Below, one piece after another: positions 19,103-48,540 of a stretch of 64,000 nt of DNA. This stretch comes from Antedon mediterranea (lineage: Eukaryota; Echinodermata; Crinoidea; Comatulida; Antedonidae): NCBI RefSeq assembly GCF_964355755.1, contig NC_092673.1, positions 2,051,001-2,115,000 on the forward strand, given 5' to 3'. The position numbers were made by a program, and so were the translations under genes. How positions within the stretch are numbered: the first letter of the stretch is position 1; each line of letters opens with the position of its first letter. A model generated the notes under the pieces. It did not search any database. It had not been told where the DNA came from and saw only the letters and a list, made by a program, of their open reading frames with translations.

Positions 19103-20137
19103 CTAGTTACCAGATCCCGTATGTGAGTACCTGTACATAATCAATAGATTACTCCGAACACACTTATTGTGTTGGCTATTTAATATTTTACGTCGAATAC
19201 ATTTACAATTCAATGCGTACAGGAAGGGATTGAGACTCATGTTACAAGCGGCAAAAACCACCGTAATTTTGAAGAAAACTCCATCCAAAGATGTGACAAC
19301 TCCAAAGTTAGCGAACAGATAGTAAATCTCATTGGGACCCCAGCAAAAAGCGTAAGCTAGCGATACGAGAAATGCCGTTTTTATTATGCGTTTCCTTACA
19401 TTTTGACTGCGTTTTACACCTGCGTCAACTACGAGTGTACTTGCGTTAGAAATGCGTCGTTTGTTGACGTGTTGAAAGTATGCTATGATTTTCCAGTATA
19501 CAAATACCATTACGGAGACCGGTATGACGTAATGATTGGTGAAAACAACGGCTCCAACGACAGTTTGTATTTGTGGAGAGTCCCATTTTACTACACACGT
19601 ACCGTTTTCAAAATGATGTGCCGTTGCCCATGCAATTTCATGAACAGGTCCAAAAATCCAGCTAATGCAACATAAGAATATTGCCTTGTTCTTAGTGAAT
19701 GAACTACGATACATAACGGGTTTGAAAACGGCCCAGTAACGTTCAATCGTGAGGCATACTATGTTGATGGTTGACGAAACACAAAGCGCCCAGAATGGAT
19801 ACTCGGAGTACCAGAGCTTACAAATCACATTTGATAATACAACATTGTCATTTGGAAAAATATTTTTTGGTCTTAGGAACAAAATCAGAAATAAAATACT
19901 ACTTAACAGATCAATGATGGCTTGATTCCGCAAGAAATATGTCGAAAGCGATACCAATTTTGGAATACGAAGAAATATATATAAAACTGTTATATTGCCG
20001 GCTATACCGACGATTCCTATTATGATATAAGCCGACGCAAGCCAAGTATCCGTAGCAGGAGCGGTCGGTATTTCACAATCTGACATGTTGTTAATCGTAT
20101 GCGTTGCGTTAGACTCGTTTACGCAATCGGCCATCAA
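19103..20137 (-). CDS. Class A (rhodopsin-family) G-protein-coupled receptor, intronless
   Basis: A single 344-residue frame holds the full class A signature set. The N-terminus has three or more N-glycosylation sequons (NES, NAT, NMS). TM1 has GN at 47-48 and TM2 has D76. Cys107 and Cys181 are placed for the conserved disulfide. ERY at 132-134 (ERYWAVFKP) takes the place of DRY, and W160 is the TM4 Trp. TM5 has P206, TM6 has CWGP at 265-268, and TM7 ends NPFLY at 303-307. CKC near 311 could be palmitoylated. The all-membrane plan and short loops fit a peptide or amine receptor. I cannot name the ligand. ATG at 20135-20137 is followed by a second Met; no intron is needed. Intronless receptors like this are often lineage-expanded in echinoderms. 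Confidence 0.9.
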   Translation of the reverse strand: MMADCVNESNATHTINNMSDCEIPTAPATDTWLASAYIIIGIVGIAGNITVLYIFLRIPKLVSLSTYFLRNQAIIDLLSSILFLILFLRPKNIFPNDNVVLSNVICKLWYSEYPFWALCVSSTINIVCLTIERYWAVFKPVMYRSSFTKNKAIFLCCISWIFGPVHEIAWATAHHFENGTCVVKWDSPQIQTVVGAVVFTNHYVIPVSVMVFVYWKIIAYFQHVNKRRISNASTLVVDAGVKRSQNVRKRIIKTAFLVSLAYAFCWGPNEIYYLFANFGVVTSLDGVFFKITVVFAACNMSLNPFLYALNCKCIRRKILNSQHNKCVRSNLLIMYRYSHTGSGN

Positions 20138-22441
20138 GTGCGATTCGACGTAAAAACGTTACGATTATGCACAAAGCAGTTTTGAAAACAAATCAACCAT
20201 TGTTACTCTTGATGAAATTCCGTAAACGACGTTATCTCTTCGGTATAATAATATTCAACAAGTTGATCACAGTACTTCTAGTTTTCAAGTAATTTCTTGC
20301 GTTGATATTACGACATTTGCGTTAAAGACACTCGTATGTTCTGTTGATCGTCACAAGTAAAAATAAAAGCAATTTTGGAAACGAACACTAATAAAGACTC
20401 GAAATTAGAATTGTAAACATCATCACAGCATCATTAACATAATCAAAATAGCAAATTTCGTTCTTCTGTTAGATAACAGAAAGCGTAGTGTGAGTATTCT
20501 ATCCAAAATATTTGGTTGTGTTCAACGTAAAATAATTCATTGAAACGCGAGTCACCTAAACATCATCGATTGGTTAAAATGTTGATCACGTGAGCAATTT
20601 GTTATGGCGTGTAGAAATATTTACTACCTATGATCATGGCAAATGAATGAAAATGTGTCTGTGAAGAGGATGGGCGATCGACGGCGGGCAGAAGATGGAT
20701 GGATGATATTCGCCTCAGACGAAACTGAGTTGAGCATATAATAATATTAAAATATTATTGTCAATAATTGGCAACAAAACGTAATATTGTACACGCTATG
20801 TAAGGTACTATAATGCACAATTTGTGCCTCAAAGCTAACTAGAAAGTACGCGCGCAACCAAAGTAATTTGACCAATCAAAATGATGACAGTTCTGATGAC
20901 TGAACTATAGTTTTCGGCGGCACTACTGCTGCGTTCAACTTTGCTCCACCTTCTGTGTATAAGTAGCCGGACATTCAAAACCTGTAAAACATCGAATTAA
21001 CAATTATTTTGGTACAGGAGAACCCCTAATAAGGAACAACTTTTGTCACTACAGTGTCCCCTGAATAGGTGTTAGCCATAGTGATAAAGAATATGCCCTT
21101 ATCTTTTCATCATCAGAAAATGTCACCATAATAGGTATGTCCCTTCAATAGGGTGTTCCAAAAGATAGGTTCTTTTTCTGAACGTATAGTAGGCTATCAG
21201 TTGTTATAAGAGGAATACAGGCATTACTATAACTATAACATTCAACTAAATTGAAATAGCATAGTGTTATCAATTAACAAGTCTGATCTTTTAATTGGAT
21301 TCCTTTAAACAATACAATATTCATTAACGTGTTTTGCTGCGGGCGGCGTTGCTTTTGAAGATGTACGCAAATGACGTCATGTACAAACCAACTTTAATTA
21401 GACCGTTACGAACATCGATTGCTCATTTTACATACAGGGGAGGGGGAGGGGGAGCATGTATGCTGAACGTGATGTTTTTTACAATTAATTTCCATGAATT
21501 TTAAATGAATTGACAGTATAAATAGTAGAGAAATCAACGCACGTATAGACTTCCGGTTGTTTTTCTCAATATTCCGCCGCGGTATAATTAAGCGGTCAGT
21601 GATACCATGGTGATACCGGGCTAGTAGGTTACAAGACGAGACAACAAAGCGCCTAATTAATTTTGTCCGGATAAGGATATAGGTTATTTATATTTAATAT
21701 ATCTTATCTTTTAATAGAGTACCGATGCTCTCAAACGTGCTAAACTCGTCGCGTTCACACTACTGCAAATTCTCAATGGATAAATTGATCGCGTTTGAAA
21801 GAAAGACCGCAAGTAGTTTCAACAGAGTGAACGTGTTTGTTCCAATTGTACGGTGACTAAAACAGTAAATATATCTTGAGTATATATGAATGACGTTTGC
21901 CAATCACAGTATTATAAAGAAAAAAACAAAGAGAAAGGAAAGCGCTTTCACAGTGGCCATGCTAAAAATAAACGCGTTTGCTTCTTGCATAAGTGACGTG
22001 ACGTAAACGCACAAACGCTTTTATTTACGGTAAAAGATGTATTGTCCTCCAAAAACATAAAAAGATTAATTAAATCAGACTTTGAATAAGTTGTTGTGTA
22101 GTTTTAATAAAGTTAATCATATTATAAAATGACAAAATTAATGGTCAAATTCCACCATAAACCCATTGGCTGGCAGCCAATTTGACTTTTTTCCTTTTTT
22201 TAGGTAAATAACATTTTTTTCGATTAAATTTTTGTTGAAAGTGGAGAACTATTATGTGACATAAAAATTGCATATTTTACTCAACAAAAATAATCTATGA
22301 CATTAAAATGGCATATTCAACAACAAAAAAATGTAAAATATTTTTTCAGACGACAATACATCTTTAAAAGAAGCCTTCATTTTAAGTCCCCCACATCTTG
22401 CCAACTCTAAATTTCCTGCTGTATACATGTGCTGTTCTTAC
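20138..22441. other. Intergenic or 3' region between GPCR and pseudoprotease
   Basis: No convincing exon. The cytoplasmic tail exon(s) of the minus-strand pseudoprotease should lie here, since its transmembrane exon ends in phase 1 at 22442. One weak possibility is a terminal exon following an acceptor near 21860, but nothing supports it beyond phase. The only recognised repeat is the MITE at 22033-22377. A G-rich GGGGAGGGGGAGGGGGA tract lies at 21436. Confidence 0.4.
22033..22377. mobile_element. MITE, GATGTATTGTC family
   Basis: It begins AAAAGATGTATTGTCCTCC and ends GACGACAATACATCTTTAA. The interior GGCTGGCAGCCAAT palindrome, GTGGAGAACTATTATGT and GGCATATTCAACA link it to the copies at 6590, 31837 and 40590. 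It has no reading frame. Confidence 0.75.
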
Positions 22442-25400
22442 CTGTATCATTATTATTAAAAACATCGTTTAATGCAAAACTGTCCGTTTTCTTCTTAGCC
22501 TTCGGACGCCATTTTAACAAAAGTAAAACAAAGAATACAATAAGTAGCGTAAGTATTGTCAACACACCGATAAGCCCAAGTCGATAACTTTCAAGTTTTT
22601 CGTCACAAACTATAATAAAAAAACATAAATGAAACTAATAATAAGATAAGGCCAACCTAACAACAGGATTCTGAGCTCTGAAGATCAAAGGGTTTATCTG
22701 TGGCTGCGACAAGATCAGTTCCACGCCCTTTAAAAGGCACCGCGAGCCGCGAAGAATATGCACATAATAGTATACAGTGTATTTGTCGCAGCCACGCGTA
22801 AGATCAAAGGACTGTTACGAGTTCCTATGTTGACAAGGCGAACTCAGTGTGTTAGATTGCCTTGGTGAGAGACACCATTTTGTAACATGTCGGTATACTT
22901 TTTTATACAACAAGTATAATAGGATGTAAATAAAATCCCTGCGCTTAATATTCATATTTCATTTATTAGTGTTAATAATACTAAATGTAAGACGGCTAAT
23001 TTTCGGTCGAGATTGGTTCACACGATGGAATATTCCATTCGTTGAACTTGCCTTGTGAACTATTGTGAACAAAGGTTTGAGTTTGAGTTGTGTTCTAGTG
23101 TGAACAGAGGTTTGAGTTTACGTCAAAAATGCATACCAGCTTAAACTCAGTTAATTATACGATAACAATCTAAATTCAAGATGCATTCATTTGTCTAAAC
23201 ATAATTAAATATCATAGCTTTTAATTAAGTAAAGTTTGGATGTTAGTATATCATCGATCATGTGTACTAGTCAATAGTCGGATTTCCAAGGGTCACGACC
23301 GACAACACACTGCGCCATCGTCCGATATACCATTACATTATTATACAGTATTGTTCAGTCAATCGATTTTTCGAGTCAGTTTTAGTACAGTCAACGATAG
23401 TGCCAATACGAGCCTTCGATAGCTATTTAACCATTTATAATATACAGTTTATCATTATAATGCACGGTTCAACAACCGACGCAATCGGATCAAAATGATT
23501 TATGCTGTAGGCCTATAATTCCAGTTAAATGTCGCCCTTTTGTTTAGAATTCTATTGCGTTTATTAAGCCCTGCCTAGTTTTGTCAAAAATCATCGTAGA
23601 CCTATCCTAGATGAGTGCACGCACTTACCACATTGTGTTATTACGTCACAAGACTACAAAGAGTAGCATGTTAAGTCTCTGACACAGTCGACCTGGTCTT
23701 TCGATCCGATTTAACTCGATATCGGTAAATATTATTGTTTTTAAGCGTCTACGATAATTATAGTAAAGTGAGAAACCTTAAAGAGAATGTTTTTCATGGA
23801 GACCTCCTTTTAACATAGAATTGATACAGTATTATCGTTACGCCAGCGTACGTATGCTTTCTTTTATTACGATTGATACCTAGTAAGTTATTATAGCCTA
23901 AGGTTGAAAACAAACTCCTGTAACTGCTGGGGGAAGAATACCGTATGAAGACTATGTATTAGGCTGACTCTCAGTCTATAGTGTGATCAATGTTCACGGA
24001 TGTTGTTCACGATATTATGATTGATACTTCAATGATGCATGAGAGTCCACACAGTTTGCGTTTTTCACAGTGTTGGTGACGCGTTCGTTTTAATTTACCT
24101 GTAACAGATGCAGCAGTGACGGAATAGATATTATTTGCACAAGCCGTGAGCGCGACCACGTCGCTAATAATGGTCTTATTAAAAAGGTGAATATACGTAA
24201 GATGTTTTTCATCGTTTACCTGCAATAAATGAAATTGTAAGATTATATCCTGATCCAGAATCTGCCCTATTATCGTTTGATTGGAAAATAATAGTTAGAG
24301 AGGTCCCCGACGAGCGAATGTTGAACCCGTTGTCATGCCCACAAAGCACGCTGTTGCCATCGTGACCATTGTCGTCGATAAATTGCAGAGTATCTTTACC
24401 GATACATATCTCATCATGATCATCATCGTAATCATCCCCGATTAAATTAAGATGATTAATATTTACGTTGATCAAATGGTCTGGTGGGCCGTGTACAGGT
24501 ATCGAGCAACGTGTGTTATCCGGATAAACATCTGGATAATTTGGTGAAATTAAGGTTGTTGGTGACGTTATTATTGCATCGCAACCTTGAATAAAAAAAA
24601 AACATACTAATGATTGGAGAAATAATATTTAGAAATATTGTATAGGCACTCCTTAACCACACACAAAGGGTTGCATCCCAGAGGCTACAAGTCCTAGGTT
24701 ATTCCGCCATTTTCCATTTACAATATACCCAGCATATCCTGATACACGGTGAAAATATAATAGTTCCTGAAATAGATATCCATGATTGATAACTAATCAA
24801 GATTGTATCCCCGGCTATATGTTTCAAGAATAAATTGGTCATTTGACACTGCAAGAGTGCCTACTTGACGGTTATTGTTGTTTTTATGAACATTATTTAT
24901 AGATCCGGCAAACCTATTCGTATCCTTGCAATATATAATTGATTGGTTAACATAACAACAACATGACGATAATATAGCGGTGTAATTCAACAACTGACAT
25001 TAACACCTACTACCTATGATTGTGAGATCGCGTTATTGAGAATAACGTCGCAGAGACCGGAGGCCCCTGGATAGGAACGCCTCGGGCGTTTTTAGCCCCT
25101 TTCGACATATTTTAATGCCTGTATTTTCCACTGGACACTGCTCAGGGGACCCCCATAATCTCCGGGCCCCTGGGTTTAGCCAGTGAGCGCTCATAATAGC
25201 CGTTACGCCACTGAGAACCTACTTGCTTTATACCAGGCTAGATAGCCCGCTTCGCTGTGATCATTGGCGTAGAAATCAAGCGTCACGACCCTACTCTGAA
25301 CAGTCAAATTTGATGGTAACTCATCTAACGTGAATGTGTCAGAGACTGACGCTTTTGCGTCATCATTGTAACTCTTTATAATGAGAACATCGGTGATGAG

Positions 25401-28400
25401 ACGATTAGTAGTAGGGGTTGAACGCGTTGTTATAAATGATAACAAGAGGCTGGTGTAGGCTGCTGATATGAATGTATTGTCTATGTTTATCTCGGTCCAG
25501 CTCCAGGCTGAGTCTAACAGCGTTGTGTCATCTATCCATCTTGGGGATGACAGTATTCCACTTACGTCAGTCACTATACTATTCACTGAAATAAAATAAG
25601 ACACTGTATGATTATATATCACGGACTTCTTAAGTATCCATTCGGATTGTAAAATAATATAATTCAAGTTTTCTGGAGTTTTTCAGGTTTTTTTTCTTTA
25701 CATTTCGGACAAACTAAAAAACTTTTAGTCAAATAAAAGTTACTAACCAATCCTAGGCGCTAGTTTGAAGTATAATGAATCGTCATCCGAAATAAGTTTG
25801 ATTTCTGAATCCATTCGCGACAGGCGACATTCTTTATCGATGTATGTGTAGTTAAATGAGTCGCATATAAATGATTCCTCTTCGATACAACTTTGCGCAC
25901 ACGCGTCCAATGTGATGATAGAGGGCAGTATTCTCTCTACCGTTTGCAGGCCTACGTTGTAGTAAACATCAAAAAATCTTGTGTATTCATCTGAAAAAAA
26001 CAAAAAAGTAAAATAAAAACACATTTCAATAAGAAAAAAAAGTATAAGTATTTTTGTAATCCCGCCAAAAATAAACACTAGACTGATTGCTAGGCAATTA
26101 ATTTAAATAAGACGTTTATTCTTTGTAATCGTAGGGTTCTGTCTACACTATCAAAATAGTTTGACAAAAAAGTGTGATGTGCCCAAATATGGTAGTGATA
26201 TGCCCAAATATAGTGTTAATATGACATCCGTATGACTATATGGGCACATCACATTTTTTGTCGCATAAAGTTTGCTAGTGAAGACAGAGCTTTAGGTCTT
26301 ATTATTAACACATTACCGCAATAAGTTTCATCAGTGCCATGATAACAGTCCTCAACGCCGTCACATTTACTGGTTCTTGCAATATACTGCCCTCCTTCAC
26401 ATTCGAAAACATCTGATGATTCTGTTTGATTAACTGTGATAAATATAATTGCATTGTTTACTGGTAACTTGGTGATGGTTAGTGTTTCAATGTCTAAAGC
26501 TCTGTCTACACTATCAAACTAGTTTGACAAAAAAAGTCTGATGTGCCCAAATACGGTAGTGATATGCCCAAATATGGTAGTGATATGACATCATCATGTC
26601 CATATATGGGAACATCACATTTGTTGTCACATAATTGATAGTGTAGACAGGGCTTTACGGTAGCAGTGTATTAATCATGGTGGCAATGATTTTGTATACT
26701 AACTTTCCGGCACCTGATCATTCAATACTAGTGCAATCCACTGTTCCGAAACCTTAGTGAGTCTAGTATACACACTGAGGTTTGTGTCACACTTATCTGG
26801 TACCAAACTTGCTATACCTACTAGCCACCAGTGGTCTCCTACCCGTGTCATCAACAACGCCCCATTGTCGCTCTGATGATACAAGTAAAGTGAGAACGGG
26901 TTCATTTATAATAATAATGAGTAACGTTCTGTATTGTTGGTGTATGTGTTGGTTAGAACAAAAAATAACTGTTTTTACACAGTAATATCCACCATTATCT
27001 TACAGAGTATTTCTTCTTGTTTCCTTTACTTGCGCAGATCATATTTTCTGTTACTATGTATCCCAACATGCCCAGCTGCTCGGTGCAGACGATTTGATTG
27101 ACAATCTTAGCTTCCACCCCCATAAAATATCTGTTTGTCATGCCTGGAAGAAAAATACTGCAAGTATAATGAACTTAACCGACATAGCCTATTTTGTTTC
27201 AGGTTGATAGATAATTGACTTTGATGAGGATCTACTTTCAAGTTACTGTAGAAGAAAGACAAGAAACATTCACCATGCAAATCGATTGGCACGTGAAACT
27301 ACGTTATTCTACACTTGGTGTTTTTTCTGTTAAGTGGTCCGGGGCGGTCACACGCGAGGAACATGACGTGCCCCGTGTGCTGCCACAAGGTTGGAATATG
27401 GTTTTATTTTGCCAATTTCGAATTTGTCTCTTTAATTTTGTTTTTAAAAAACAAAGCAAAGTAAGTTACATAATAAATGCGTGGCGTACCTTTGTTTATA
27501 CTTCCCCATCCAGTTACTATGCAGTCAGTGATGTCACTGAAAACACTCGTCATGTTTTCTGGTGGCACGCATATCACGCTTACGTCATCGGTTAAATAAA
27601 ATGGACGCTGAACGTGAAGTAACGTAATATCGGAATCATAGCTACCGTAAATGTAGTCTGGATGTGTATAGACGTCGGTTACGTTTCGCTTTTGTAAACT
27701 TTTTGTTCCCATAACAATTGTGTATAAATTAGGTTCGTATATTAATTGTCTACAAAAAACAAATGATTTACCTTTATAATAATTACTTTAGGAAAGGAAA
27801 TACTACACGGTATACAAACAAAATTATTACAGACAAAAAGTCTTAAAACCTACTTTTGCGACGTAGTTTTTTTGCAATTTAAAGTGCGCCCTCTCTATCG
27901 TCACACAATCGGGTTTCACTGACAAAATATCTACGAATGCGATGCTTAATTGACAAACTTTACCATACAATAAATGCATTTTACTTAAAATTGATATCTA
28001 TATGATCTATTTAATTACGATTAACATTAATTTAGAAGTCATCACTCCAGCTGGTAACATGAATGTATCGTATACTTACATACAATGCGCAGTACTAAGT
28101 ACCCACTCTGCGTCGATTAGTGCTCCTGCGCAGATGAACACATTGTCCTGAAATATTGCGGCCTGCCATGGCCAAGAAACGTCTGCTACGTTACCCTTGA
28201 TTATGTTTGATAAATGTGGTTCACTTCCACAACTGTTTATATCTAAATGAACCAGGTTGGCAATGTCAAAGAGGAGTCAATAGCAATTGTAATTTCTGGA
28301 TGAACACATCCACAATATTCTATACATTAAAAAAGCATTTGTAATAAGGGTTTCGCAAATAGCGTGCGCAACGCGTGGTGCGAAGTGTTTGGAAGCAAAC

Positions 28401-29085
28401 GTCACGACACGTACGTACGTGATTTGTTGTATGTACGTACGCGACGTGACGTTTGCTTCCCATCATGCATTGTGCAATGATGTTCCTCGCGCGTGAAATC
28501 AAGCTATTTGCGATATCACCCTATGACGCTGTGGTCGTATGGTAATGATTTGAACCCACGAACCTTGTATTATTAGTAAAACATGTTAACCACGAAGCTA
28601 CTTCATACTCTCCAATTATGATATTTCAATTTGTTATACATGATACTCGTCTATACTTTACGGATGGTATACACATATAACGAGCAAGCGTTACTCTGCG
28701 CACTACTTTATTTAATCATTCATTAGCGCGCATGCACATTTATGAGTGATTACAGTAGTTAACTAAATTTTTTTTCTGGACAAGAAATGTTAAACATGAT
28801 AACCCACGCCTGCGGATAATGCTAGGTCTGTGTTACCCCGCATAGATTTCATGATACTTGGGCAATTTTAACACTGCTGTTTCAACATTAAACACCAAAC
28901 CGGACCATGAAAATAGCGAGATTTAATAAAATGTTGAATATCTGGTGAAAATGATAGATCCCGTATTTACCTTGATATTGATACGTCACTCGTATAACAG
29001 CCAGCAACAAACATAAGTATAAATATACACGACGATTATTTAACGCTGTTAATAAATTATTCCAGAATTTCACGGAGGCCGTCAT
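22442..29085 (-). CDS. Membrane-anchored trypsin-like pseudoprotease with LDLa, PAN and CUB modules (3' end open)
   Basis: Ten minus-strand exons join in phase with AG/GT borders: 28971-29085, 28080-28242, 27490-27749, 27004-27143, 26704-26872, 26317-26412, 25748-25990, 25223-25585, 24220-24585, 22442-22609, about 694 residues. Residues 1-38 are a signal peptide ([16 protein letters not shown] core). About 45-275 is a peptidase S1 domain: STAHC keeps His57, DSDITLL keeps Asp102, GWGS and VYTRL are typical, but GDSGGPL has become SDNGALL, so Ser195 is Asn. The activation site reads SNIIKG with no basic residue, and the Cys191/Asp189 region is shortened ([11 protein letters not shown]). Then comes LDLa (283-314, lacking Cys1 and Cys3), PAN/apple ([19 protein letters not shown]), a cysteine-free CUB-like domain, a CUB with four Cys, and a TM helix near 648-672 followed by KWRPKAKKK. 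Known for the family: such homologues bind rather than cleave. Role here unknown. The cytoplasmic end is not found. Confidence 0.78.
22681..22810. mobile_element. Small hairpin element with GTGGCTGCGACAA arms
   Basis: The perfect 13-bp inverted arms are at 22700-22712 and 22783-22795. Direct repeats AAGATCAAAGG stand outside at 22681-22691 and 22800-22810, which could be a target duplication or outer element sequence. It lies in the intron between the CUB and transmembrane exons of the pseudoprotease. Confidence 0.6.
26126..26295. mobile_element. MITE, CTGTCTACACTATCAAA family
   Basis: The left end is TTCTGTCTACACTATCAAAATAGTTTGACAAAAAAG. The right end is the inverted equivalent, TTTGCTAGTGAAGACAGAGC. 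Between them lie repeats of GATATGCCCAAATATGG. It is in the intron between the LDLa and PAN exons. The sister copy at 26497-26660 is in the adjacent intron. Confidence 0.75.
26497..26660. mobile_element. MITE, CTGTCTACACTATCAAA family
   Basis: It begins AAAGCTCTGTCTACACTATC and ends GATAGTGTAGACAGGGCTTTA, with the internal GATATGCCCAAATATGG motif. It is located in the intron between the last S1 exon and the LDLa exon, 40 bp from the S1 exon donor. Confidence 0.8.
28350..28515. mobile_element. Palindromic MITE with TCGCAAATAGC termini
   Basis: GGGTTTCGCAAATAGC at the left is mirrored by GCTATTTGCGATATCACCC at the right. A second inner inverted pair, GGAAGCAAACGTCACG and CGTGACGTTTGCTTCC, flanks a CGTACGTACG centre. 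The short open frame here is a by-product. Confidence 0.7.
28545..28612 (-). repeat. tRNA-like SINE head
   Basis: On the minus strand TAGCTTCGTGGTTAACATG resembles an A box, and GGGTTCAAATC, about 30 nt on, is a B box. The stems expected of a functional tRNA are not preserved, so a tRNA-derived SINE or pseudogene is more likely. It is in intron 1 of the pseudoprotease. Confidence 0.5.
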
Positions 29086-29885: not shown

Positions 29886-30811
29886 CTAAACCATTTATTT
29901 AGCAAAACCGATACATATTAAAATACAATTATATAATGGTTACGAAAAAGTAAGTAACCCTGTTGGGTGCTACACAATAATATTTCATTCTAATTTTTAA
30001 AATCAACTTCAACATTGCTCTATACTCAAATATATTATTATAACTTATACCTAACGTACCCTTTTCATATTTGTTAGGAAAGTGTTACAATAAATATTAT
30101 TATTAACCATTGTTTTCTGCTTCGAGTGTTCTGTGTAGATTTATTCGAAAATGTTCTGTGATTCAACCGGGCCCACAATGTAACGCACACGGTTCTACAA
30201 CTTTTCACGGGCTTTATAGTCCAATCTATTGAATATAGTAGTACGTGTAGCCTACAACCATGAGATTAATTTATTGTTAATGTATTATGAGGATATGATA
30301 CCTAATATGTGTATTACCCATATGTGTATTGTCTAACAAAATGCAATGTGATAAACAATAGTTTATTATGACCTATTCAATAATAGGCCTACTAAAGTAT
30401 ATATTTTTATATCTTTTTATCATAACATATATTTAACAATAAACTAAGCATTTTCTTTTAAAGGGACACCGCGCGCTGATATCCACTTTATATAACACAA
30501 ACGGACTATAATTACAGTTTAAGAATTGCGTAATACACGTGATCATGTAGGTAATTATAAAAGTCAGTCGTTGAACCTTTAAAATTGCTCTTTAAATTGC
30601 TTTTATCAATTGTGTAAAATTTGGGACAAAAGATGGCGACACAAAGTAAATTTTTACAACTTTTTTCTTCAGATTTCTTGTTCATAAAGTAGTTTTGTCG
30701 CTTTAGAACTAGGTTGAGTTGGCGTCTGCCCTAGGCTCATGGCGAAGAAAGCCCTGTGCCCTACAAACTGTTGATAATGACGGTTTGACTTCTAGGCCTA
30801 TATCTGTGTTT

Positions 30812-30946
30812 TAAGCTCTGTCTACACTATAAAACTAGTTTGACAAAAAAGTTTGATGTGCCCAAATGATATGACATCATAATATCCATATATGGGCACA
30901 TCATAGTTTTTGTCAGATAAAGTTTGATAGTGTAGAAAGAGTTTAA
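30812..30946. mobile_element. MITE, CTGTCTACACTATCAAA family
   Basis: It begins TTAAGCTCTGTCTACACTAT and ends GATAGTGTAGAAAGAGTTTAA, so both borders are TTAA. The interior has GATGTGCCCAAATGATATGACATC. It is shorter than the copies at 26 kb. Confidence 0.8.
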
Positions 30947-45548: not shown

Positions 45549-47726
45549 TTAGCCTAAAGTCGGTATGTACTTTTCGATACAGACACATCCGTGCTCAGTG
45601 AGTGGCTGCGGCAGGGAACCCACCTGGCTCCACATATTTAAATTAGGATCGTAACACTTGATATCAGACACATTGACTGCGCTTTCCAACTTGCTTCCGC
45701 CTGATACAATGATCTTTTCATTTAACACCGTTGTACCATACGAGTACAGGTACCGTCCATCAGGGATCGACGAACCGCGTATTCGCTCCGACGTAAACGG
45801 ATTGAAAATAATCAGCTCATTTTCATCTCCTCGTGACACAAGATAGAAAATAAAATCATTAATGACAACGGCTGTTTCAATGCCTTCACCGTGTACGCGC
45901 TCAAAATTAAAGATGGCTGACCAGCAATCATCAGCTGGGTCATAGCAGTGAATGATGTCAGGATCTCGGAAGAAGTAACCATTAACAAACAACTTACCGT
46001 TGACTGACGTCACCACTGGTCGTTCCAGAAAACTACCTTTTATCCGATTAACATAAGTCCATATATTTAGTACTGGATCGTAACGTTCAACGTCGTTCGA
46101 CTTCCGAGACCAACCGGTTCGTCCGCCAACTACATATATTTTGCCGTTTAAAACAGCGACACCGTGATTATGACGTGGTTTGTTTAAACTAGCTACCTGC
46201 GACCACTTGTCAGTAAGCGATTCATACCTCCATACATCCGCAAGAGTCTCTGACAAGTTTGCATGGTAGTCGACCTGACCACCGATGACGTACACATCGT
46301 TGTTTAACGAAACACAGGCAAATCGTTGGTTTCGACCGGGAAATGGTGCCAAACTTGTCCAAGAGTTATCAATGAGGTTACAACACCAGACGTCGTGTAT
46401 CCATTGCTGTTCACTGTCAAATCCACCAATTATTATCATGACTTCTGTAGTCATTGAAAGACGTAATCGAAGTCGATCGTCACAAATTCCTTCTGGAGCA
46501 TCTCTAAGCATCTTAGCATCTTTAACAATTTCCATGCATTCCTCGTGATTAAGAATCACTGGATTCTGTTCTACGGAAACTGAAAAGTATTTGATGTCTA
46601 ACAGAGGTAATCTGACCTTCCTTAGTATGTCACCAAAGTACTCCTGCTTATCCTGGTTGGATCCATACCACTGCAACACTGCGTCAAAGACCACTTCTTC
46701 TTTTTTAATGTTCAGATGATCATTTTCAATAATACGCATAAGAGTTGAAGGATTGATTTCCAGAAAATCACAAGTGTTACAAACTTGAAGGAAATGTTTG
46801 TAGACATAATTCAAAGCATCATTATAAATTTCATAGCAGCCGATACTCTGAGCAAAATTCATAAAACTAATACAGTTATCAGGTTCGAGGTTTTTCTTGA
46901 AAAATTCCGAACATGCTGTAATGACTGGGTGATAATGAAGATAGCTTGCGAGAGAAATGAGGTCTTGAGCGTTCTGCAAAGTTATCAATAGTTTACCAGT
47001 ATATGTAAACTCCATAATGTTACGAAAAAGCTCCAAATCGACAATCTGTTGCAGACGAACAATCTTATTGTCTGATTCAACCATATTTGAAGAAAACATG
47101 GCGCGAAAAAAGGTGCTGCAAGCTGAAAGAACAACGCGATGACACGGAAAGTTCTCTCCAGCAACTTGGATGGTAACATCTGTGAAAAGATGACTTTCTC
47201 TTTGATCGTTCATCGACTTGAGTAAACTGGCAGGGAATGTGCTGTCATGATGTTGTACCTCCGTGTTACGATGTTCTCCTAATGGAGTGACATCACCTTC
47301 CAAACGTTCCAAAGTATCTTCTTTCAGTAAATAATATTCATTGCACGAATCTTCGATGCCTTTCCCTGCTAATGCGGGTTCCGATAGATAACACAGTTTA
47401 CTTAACGATTTATAATTATGTTCATTTATCAGCAATTCAAGTGTGTAAATAAAAGTAACTAAATCCATCAAAATAACATCACTGAAACTGATTATCAGCG
47501 GTTGATGCAACTCAATTCGATTACTTGAATCGGTATCGGTATCGTCACCATAGCTCCTGAGTAGTTGATGGCGAATGAGTGGACTACCTGCGGCTAACAC
47601 AGCTTTGTGCCCGTTAATTACCCGTCCGTTGATATCTAATTGCACATCTGTGAAATCTTGCGACTCCCAAAATCCTTTCAATCGTAAAAGAAGATCATGG
47701 GCGTGTTTTTGGTGGTAGGTAGACAT
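45549..47726 (-). CDS. Kelch-like protein with two BTB domains, BACK and Kelch propeller (intronless)
   Basis: One uninterrupted 725-residue frame. About 15-120 is a divergent BTB domain (FTDVQLDINGRVINGHKAVL, SPLIRHQLL, and IYTLELLINEHNYKSLSKL at its end). About 170-278 is a second, canonical BTB (LFTDVTIQVAGENFPCHRVV, FFRAMFSSNMVES, FTYTGKLLI). About 283-412 is a BACK domain (EPDNCISFMNFAQSIGC, LQWYGSNQDKQEYFGDIL). About 428-720 holds Kelch repeats with the IIIGG, YVIGG, YVVGG and IIVSGG strands and W at repeat ends (DNSWTSL, DKWSQV, NMWSQV). Known for the family: substrate adaptors of CUL3 E3 ligases, with BTB binding cullin and Kelch binding substrate. The ordinary layout has a single BTB, so the first is an addition. 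The substrate is unknown. Confidence 0.9.
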   Translation of the reverse strand: MSTYHQKHAHDLLLRLKGFWESQDFTDVQLDINGRVINGHKAVLAAGSPLIRHQLLRSYGDDTDTDSSNRIELHQPLIISFSDVILMDLVTFIYTLELLINEHNYKSLSKLCYLSEPALAGKGIEDSCNEYYLLKEDTLERLEGDVTPLGEHRNTEVQHHDSTFPASLLKSMNDQRESHLFTDVTIQVAGENFPCHRVVLSACSTFFRAMFSSNMVESDNKIVRLQQIVDLELFRNIMEFTYTGKLLITLQNAQDLISLASYLHYHPVITACSEFFKKNLEPDNCISFMNFAQSIGCYEIYNDALNYVYKHFLQVCNTCDFLEINPSTLMRIIENDHLNIKKEEVVFDAVLQWYGSNQDKQEYFGDILRKVRLPLLDIKYFSVSVEQNPVILNHEECMEIVKDAKMLRDAPEGICDDRLRLRLSMTTEVMIIIGGFDSEQQWIHDVWCCNLIDNSWTSLAPFPGRNQRFACVSLNNDVYVIGGQVDYHANLSETLADVWRYESLTDKWSQVASLNKPRHNHGVAVLNGKIYVVGGRTGWSRKSNDVERYDPVLNIWTYVNRIKGSFLERPVVTSVNGKLFVNGYFFRDPDIIHCYDPADDCWSAIFNFERVHGEGIETAVVINDFIFYLVSRGDENELIIFNPFTSERIRGSSIPDGRYLYSYGTTVLNEKIIVSGGSKLESAVNVSDIKCYDPNLNMWSQVGSLPQPLTEHGCVCIEKYIPTLG

Positions 47727-48540
47727 CCTGGACTTAACCGCACTGCTTATTTTAATTTAATCCAATTTAAAAATCAGGAAAATACTTTTACTCTATTAGG
47801 TATATACAATAGTTTGTGTATGTTCTTCAAATCCAAACGCAGTTATGAGCTTTTCTTGACGTTGCTGTTTATTTATAAACGTGTAAGATTGGACCTGTGC
47901 CTTTTTAACTGCGTGCTTGGCATACACACAGAAATGTATGTAGCCTAAGCCAACACTTCATTAAAAGTATGTACGTACAAATAGATTGATAGTTCCATTC
48001 CAGCGTGTTTTGAATGAGTTGGCTGCCCTGGACCATCAAAATCGATGTGTAATTCGACATAATCCATGTTGTCAATGCGTAGGCCTATCATCTTCATTGC
48101 GTAGGCCTCCTACAGTACTTCATCTTCATCTCGTATTCTTATTCATTGCGTATGCCTATATATCAATTAATTTCCATCTTTGTTGCGTAGGCCCAATATA
48201 TTTTGTAATCAACATCTTGCTATTCCTGGAATGTTATAACTTGGCAGAAGTAGGCCTACTGGTAAAAGATAGCGCGCCACCAACTGGTCTATTTAACAAA
48301 TAGAAAATTATTTGCTGAATGCAGCTGCAGTAAGCCTTATGTTTTATTTATTTATAGTTCAATTATCTTGCAAAATTTGCACGTAAATAGTGCGTTATCA
48401 TCATATATAATCAATCTTTTAATCGATGCAAAAATATTCCTCCTTCTAGCACGCTAACTATCTAACTACCTCAATACATATTTTAAAGAGTCGACACAAC
48501 TGGTTTCTATGGTACTATAAGATGATGATAACACAATCTC
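47727..48540. other. Upstream region of the Kelch-like gene
   Basis: Probably the promoter or 5' UTR of the minus-strand Kelch-like gene, but no core element is clear. Several GTAGGCC words cluster at 48078-48262. The overlapping plus-strand open frames lack family features. Confidence 0.4.

Follow-up and report, generated by a model that had tools for sequence, protein, structure and literature searches.

A putative membrane pseudoprotease with an N-terminal S1 domain and its apparently active sister gene in the crinoid Antedon mediterranea

The stretch of DNA analyzed here (the window, 64,000 nucleotides) corresponds to C4:2051001-2115000 in our numbering of the 18 contigs of the 354-Mb Antedon mediterranea genome, at least eight of which are 26 Mb or longer, indicating that the assembly is of chromosome scale. 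On its minus strand, between positions 22442 and 29085, lies a gene of ten exons that were joined by in silico splicing into 2104 coding bases, i.e., 701 codons with no stop and no frameshift, all introns being of the GT-AG type. These coordinates agree with those of an initial annotation based on the sequence, which had described ten exons joined in phase. The order of the modules, deduced from splicing, Pfam searches and reading of the sequence, is signal peptide, S1, LDLa, PAN, CUB-like, CUB and transmembrane (TM) helix. From exon 1 to exon 10, the exons end in phases 1, 2, 1, 0, 1, 1, 1, 1, 1 and 1; the varied phases are those of the S1-coding part (1, 2, 1, 0, 1), and exons 6 to 10 each end in phase 1. 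Exon ends that are all in phase 1 are a classic mark of shuffled extracellular modules. Exon 1 (28971-29085) provides the start codon and a signal peptide whose hydrophobic core was read from the sequence, and it ends on a phase-1 donor; in the sister gene described below, the signal peptide at the matching place is clearer.

The S1 domain is encoded by exons 2 to 5. Its match to the Pfam Trypsin profile (E 1e-31) runs from position 8 to position 217 of 220 and thus covers the whole S1 (chymotrypsin) fold, and the nearest sequence of solved structure is that of enteropeptidase (E 1e-27). The catalytic positions were judged by comparison with human enteropeptidase, the sister gene and 17 further S1 loci from this genome. 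Exon 2 (28080-28242), in which the S1 domain starts, has the activation site HLSN/IIKG, where Asn takes the place of a basic P1 residue and IIKG that of the usual IVGG, and it retains His57 in STAHC. Asp102 is also retained, within DSDITL in exon 3 (27490-27749). In exon 4 (27004-27143), Asp189 and Cys191 are gone, the sequence reading KKKYS. In exon 5 (26704-26872), where the domain ends, the GDSGGP motif has become SDNGAL (within SDNGALL), with Ser195 replaced by Asn (codon AAT at 26864-26866), Gly193 by Ser and Pro198 by Leu. Neither the complete His57-Asp102-Ser195 triad nor the basic P1 residue before I/V-V-G-G, two marks of active S1 proteases, is therefore present. Judging from these residues, the domain is catalytically dead, as the initial annotation had proposed in calling it a pseudoprotease, and residual or altered catalysis by the Asn195 form appears improbable.

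Downstream of the S1 domain, the predicted stalk starts with an LDLa module in exon 6 (26317-26433), which has four of the six cysteines and scores just below the curated Pfam cut-off (E 1.3e-4). The two missing cysteines, C1 and C3, form a bonding pair. This module is 57% identical to that of the sister, which scores above the cut-off. Exon 7 (25748-25990) encodes an apple-type PAN module (PAN_1, E 2e-7), and exon 9 (24220-24585) a CUB module (E 9e-13). Between them, exon 8 (25223-25585) is free of cysteines, has no Pfam match on its own, and gives an uninformative structural model when predicted alone (mean pLDDT of 36.5). It is nonetheless best seen as a degenerate CUB, since exon 8 of the sister alone nears the Pfam CUB cut-off (E 7e-4, 20.3 bits vs. 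21.4), and since with a CUB profile built from this genome both exon 8 sequences rank, weakly, above 200 shuffles. The label 'CUB-like' that it had been given is thus fair.

Exon 10 (22442-22609), which is homologous to the TM exon of the sister, encodes the TM helix followed by the beginning of a basic cytoplasmic tail (KWRPKAKKK). It contains no stop codon and ends in phase 1 on the donor CAG/GTAAGA, whose score of 7.1 is the highest among the 623 GT sites of the local 10 kb. Because the exon is stop-free and ends on this top-scoring donor, a short cytoplasmic exon probably follows. Reading on past the donor adds only some 11 codons before a stop, and the sister has a phase-1 GT at the corresponding place of its exon 10, with a weak score (0.7). 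The earlier statement that the TM helix comes last therefore holds for the last recognizable domain but probably not for the 3' end of the gene. Three acceptor candidates turned up when the terminal exon was sought in the interval 20160-22441, but none of them (71 residues or fewer) was convincing; below 19 kb, the minus strand of the window showed no long exon in which a domain could be recognized. No signaling domain or motif was seen in exon 10. With a hydrophobic leader in exon 1, an S1 domain in the ectodomain (exons 2 to 5), and a C-terminal TM helix with a basic flank in exon 10, the predicted protein has the features of a type I membrane S1 protein, in line with the topology and the N-terminal position of the S1 domain initially proposed, and not those of the type II class, in which an N-terminal signal anchor is combined with a C-terminal S1 domain.

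Other features of the window were noted in passing. Short repeats (GATGTGCCCAAATA...TATGGGCACATCA) recur in the introns and flanks of the gene (26170-26250, 26540-26640 and 30810-30930), similar ones are found at the locus of the sister gene, and they possibly represent a family of small mobile elements. Just downstream of the pseudoprotease gene, a single-exon open reading frame of 351 codons (19103-20158, minus strand) has the look of a rhodopsin-type seven-helix receptor, and an intronless one of 735 codons farther away (45549-47756, minus strand) is BTB-Kelch-like.

A search of the same genome with the window gene revealed matches on a second chromosome, arranged in the order expected (C1:20003950-20013022, minus strand). 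This sister gene likewise consists of ten exons, whose phases equal those of the window gene at each junction, and it encodes all of the same modules, from the signal peptide to the TM helix; its TM exon, located by a hydrophobicity scan, comes directly after the CUB exon. Its Pfam matches are Trypsin (6e-63), CUB (2e-26, in two matched stretches), LDLa (1e-6) and PAN (5e-5). It differs from the window gene in having an intact His-Asp-Ser triad, Asp189 and an IVGG N-terminus, and it resembles the window gene in that the P1 residue of its activation site is also non-basic (Phe before IVGG). The sister thus looks like an active, trypsin-type protease for which, given its Phe-IVGG site, self-activation through a trypsin-like cut is hardly to be expected.

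Aligned over 654 residues, the two proteins share 33% identity. Their S1 domains pair in an S1 tree with a support of 0.92, on branches of 1.48 for the window gene vs. 0.41 for the sister; this tree was built from a query-anchored alignment with gaps, and only the window-sister pairing is relied on. In both, as read from the pairwise alignment, Cys136 is kept and Cys201, its normal partner, is replaced by Thr, a shared derived feature of the pair. Agreement between the two genes at codon positions 1, 2 and 3 is 0.49, 0.59 and 0.34, respectively. These values show protein-level constraint on the pair but not on the window branch by itself, and most of this constraint might stem from the active sister; synonymous sites are saturated at such divergence.

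We define an S1-LDLa-PAN-CUB-CUB-TM family by the module order and exon phases common to these two genes of one genome, which are a small sample. Since an apparently active sister on another chromosome has the same order, exons, phases and TM exon, the layout is real and older than the loss of activity, and it is not tied to the pseudoprotease state. The simplest history would be that an active ancestor with this layout duplicated and that catalysis was subsequently lost in the window copy.

To place the pair among the other S1 genes of the genome, censuses of S1, PAN, CUB and LDLa sequences were compared by eye, the best 150 candidates being scored in each. Within these limits, CUB or PAN exons that adjoin S1 genes are mostly upstream of them, which is the usual order (e.g., C6:24191000-24240000, C2:4698000-4702000 and C1:19284434-19287900), and only the window gene and its sister have an S1 domain followed by LDLa, PAN and CUB modules. 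A third gene (C1:14457000-14466600, minus strand), whose modules were recognized by eye, encodes a Frizzled-like module, an S1 domain (GDSGGP, RIVGG), several LDLa modules and more Frizzled-like modules. Its parts are similar to those of corin, but its S1 domain is not C-terminal, and since LDLa modules follow the S1 domain, a non-C-terminal S1 domain is not confined to the family defined here. The same survey also came across single-frame, intronless S1 domains (C9:3037500-3095600, C7:21279500, C5:10867800, C8:22586650 and C8:22621450), most of them intact and several clustered on C9; the active site of the one at C8:22621450 reads GEDGGS, making another inactive copy likely. The locus on C6, on the minus strand, contains several CUB-S1 genes in tandem that are nearly identical to one another.

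We favor, as an evenly balanced proposition, the reading that the window gene encodes a type I membrane pseudoprotease that arose by gene duplication from an active membrane protease with its S1 domain at the N-terminus, and that it serves as a surface binder that does not cut. In the course of this, the duplicate would have lost catalysis (S195N, G193S in the oxyanion hole, loss of D189, no basic activation site) but retained its fold together with the LDLa-PAN-CUB-CUB stalk and its anchor. The S1 face and the modules might then bind cell-surface proteins that the active sister also meets, be they substrate, inhibitor or zymogen, and the bound partners would be scaffolded, sequestered or shielded with no cutting. 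The most likely role would be that of a co-receptor or decoy at the cell surface, without enzymatic activity, within a network of pericellular proteases; we infer this function, like the expression, membrane topology, binding role and partner of the protein and any signaling by its tail, from the gene itself. The pseudoprotease and its active sister possibly belong to the same pathway. Activation of matriptase in mouse placenta needs prostasin (PMC3431340), which sets a precedent for membrane S1 proteases acting in pairs, and the window gene might work in a similar manner. A more far-reaching proposal, which we consider unlikely, is that type I mosaic membrane S1 proteins make up a family specific to this lineage, in which the dead sister regulates the active one, the two forming a matched surface pair that would be an independently evolved counterpart of matriptase and prostasin.

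Other explanations have to be weighed against a non-cutting partner of an active protease. The initial annotation suggested a cell-surface binding receptor, possibly for recognition or adhesion. In such a receptor, the S1 fold, PAN and CUB would bind ligands of microbes or of neighboring cells and a further cytoplasmic exon would signal. This role would suit a protein of type I topology whose tail probably runs past exon 10, and both PAN and CUB serve generally as binding modules. However, the search yielded just one further gene with this layout and nothing like the family expansion or the clusters that immune receptors typically show, and neither exon 10 nor the minus strand of the window below 19 kb offers a recognizable signaling part; we regard this reading as possible, though rather improbable. 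That the protein is instead a working protease of an unusual kind, or one active through another residue, is hardly credible, as the retention of His57 and Asp102 is outweighed by the alteration of Ser195, Gly193, Asp189, Cys191, Pro198 and the basic activation site together.

The loss of catalytic residues and the longer branch of the window gene, together with the absence of two cysteines from LDLa and of those from exon 8, might also be expected if a copy of the active sister were decaying as a pseudogene. Against this, all of its ten exons are free of lesions and all splice sites are canonical at 33% identity to the sister, and such an intact frame is not expected of neutral decay over the age that this identity implies. 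The missing LDLa cysteines, moreover, fit remodeling better than decay, as they are partners in one bond. Decay thus has only a slim chance of being the right explanation. Finally, the proximity of the seven-helix receptor-like gene brings to mind an artifact in which two or more adjoining genes are read as one. This is very improbable, as the exon order, the phases and the TM exon are repeated on another chromosome and independent juxtaposition at two loci in the same order is not credible. The recurrence upholds the initial view of a single gene and makes it very unlikely that separate genes start at the PAN or CUB exons, which had been named as a possible refutation.

Compared with enteropeptidase and matriptase, the family of the window gene and its sister is a membrane protease turned round, with the enzyme at the tip and a C-terminal anchor. 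Like these two type II proteins and corin, the window protein combines an S1 domain and LDLa in a predicted membrane protein, and enteropeptidase and matriptase also have CUB modules; it differs from all three by its N-terminal S1 domain, its C-terminal type I anchor, the order S1-LDLa-PAN-CUB-CUB and its dead S1 domain. As for that last feature, the S1 fold has also lost its catalytic Ser in haptoglobin, in HGF and in the insect serine protease homologues; these pseudoproteases are mostly soluble, whereas the window protein is predicted to be membrane-anchored on a mosaic stalk. TMPRSS12, prostasin, testisin and PRSS55 resemble the window protein in that their S1 domain follows the signal peptide and their anchor is C-terminal, but to our knowledge they lack LDLa, PAN and CUB modules. 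In OVCH2, the S1 domain precedes the CUBs, and, unlike for the window protein, we know of no LDLa, PAN or TM anchor in it.

In the literature searched, including that on pseudoprotease receptors, precedents were found for parts and none for the whole S1-LDLa-PAN-CUB-CUB-TM combination; annotated eukaryote genomes lay outside this search, and the combination may well be annotated there. The initial annotation had taken an apparently undescribed layout as a mark of strangeness, a view that loses its force given the precedents for the parts, which include the S1-then-LDLa gene of the same genome. Schistosoma SmSP1 was set aside as a precedent, its order being the usual CUB-LDLa-S1 and not S1-first (PMC3967958). 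With active and dead members of the same exon structure, the family offers a clean pair in which to ask what a non-cutting surface protease still does. For its parts, close known counterparts are TMPRSS12, prostasin/PRSS8, testisin and PRSS55, which are S1 proteases of about 310-350 residues with a type I or GPI anchor (PMC7834812), and OVCH2, which shares with the window protein tandem CUB domains at the C-terminus (PMC10850435).
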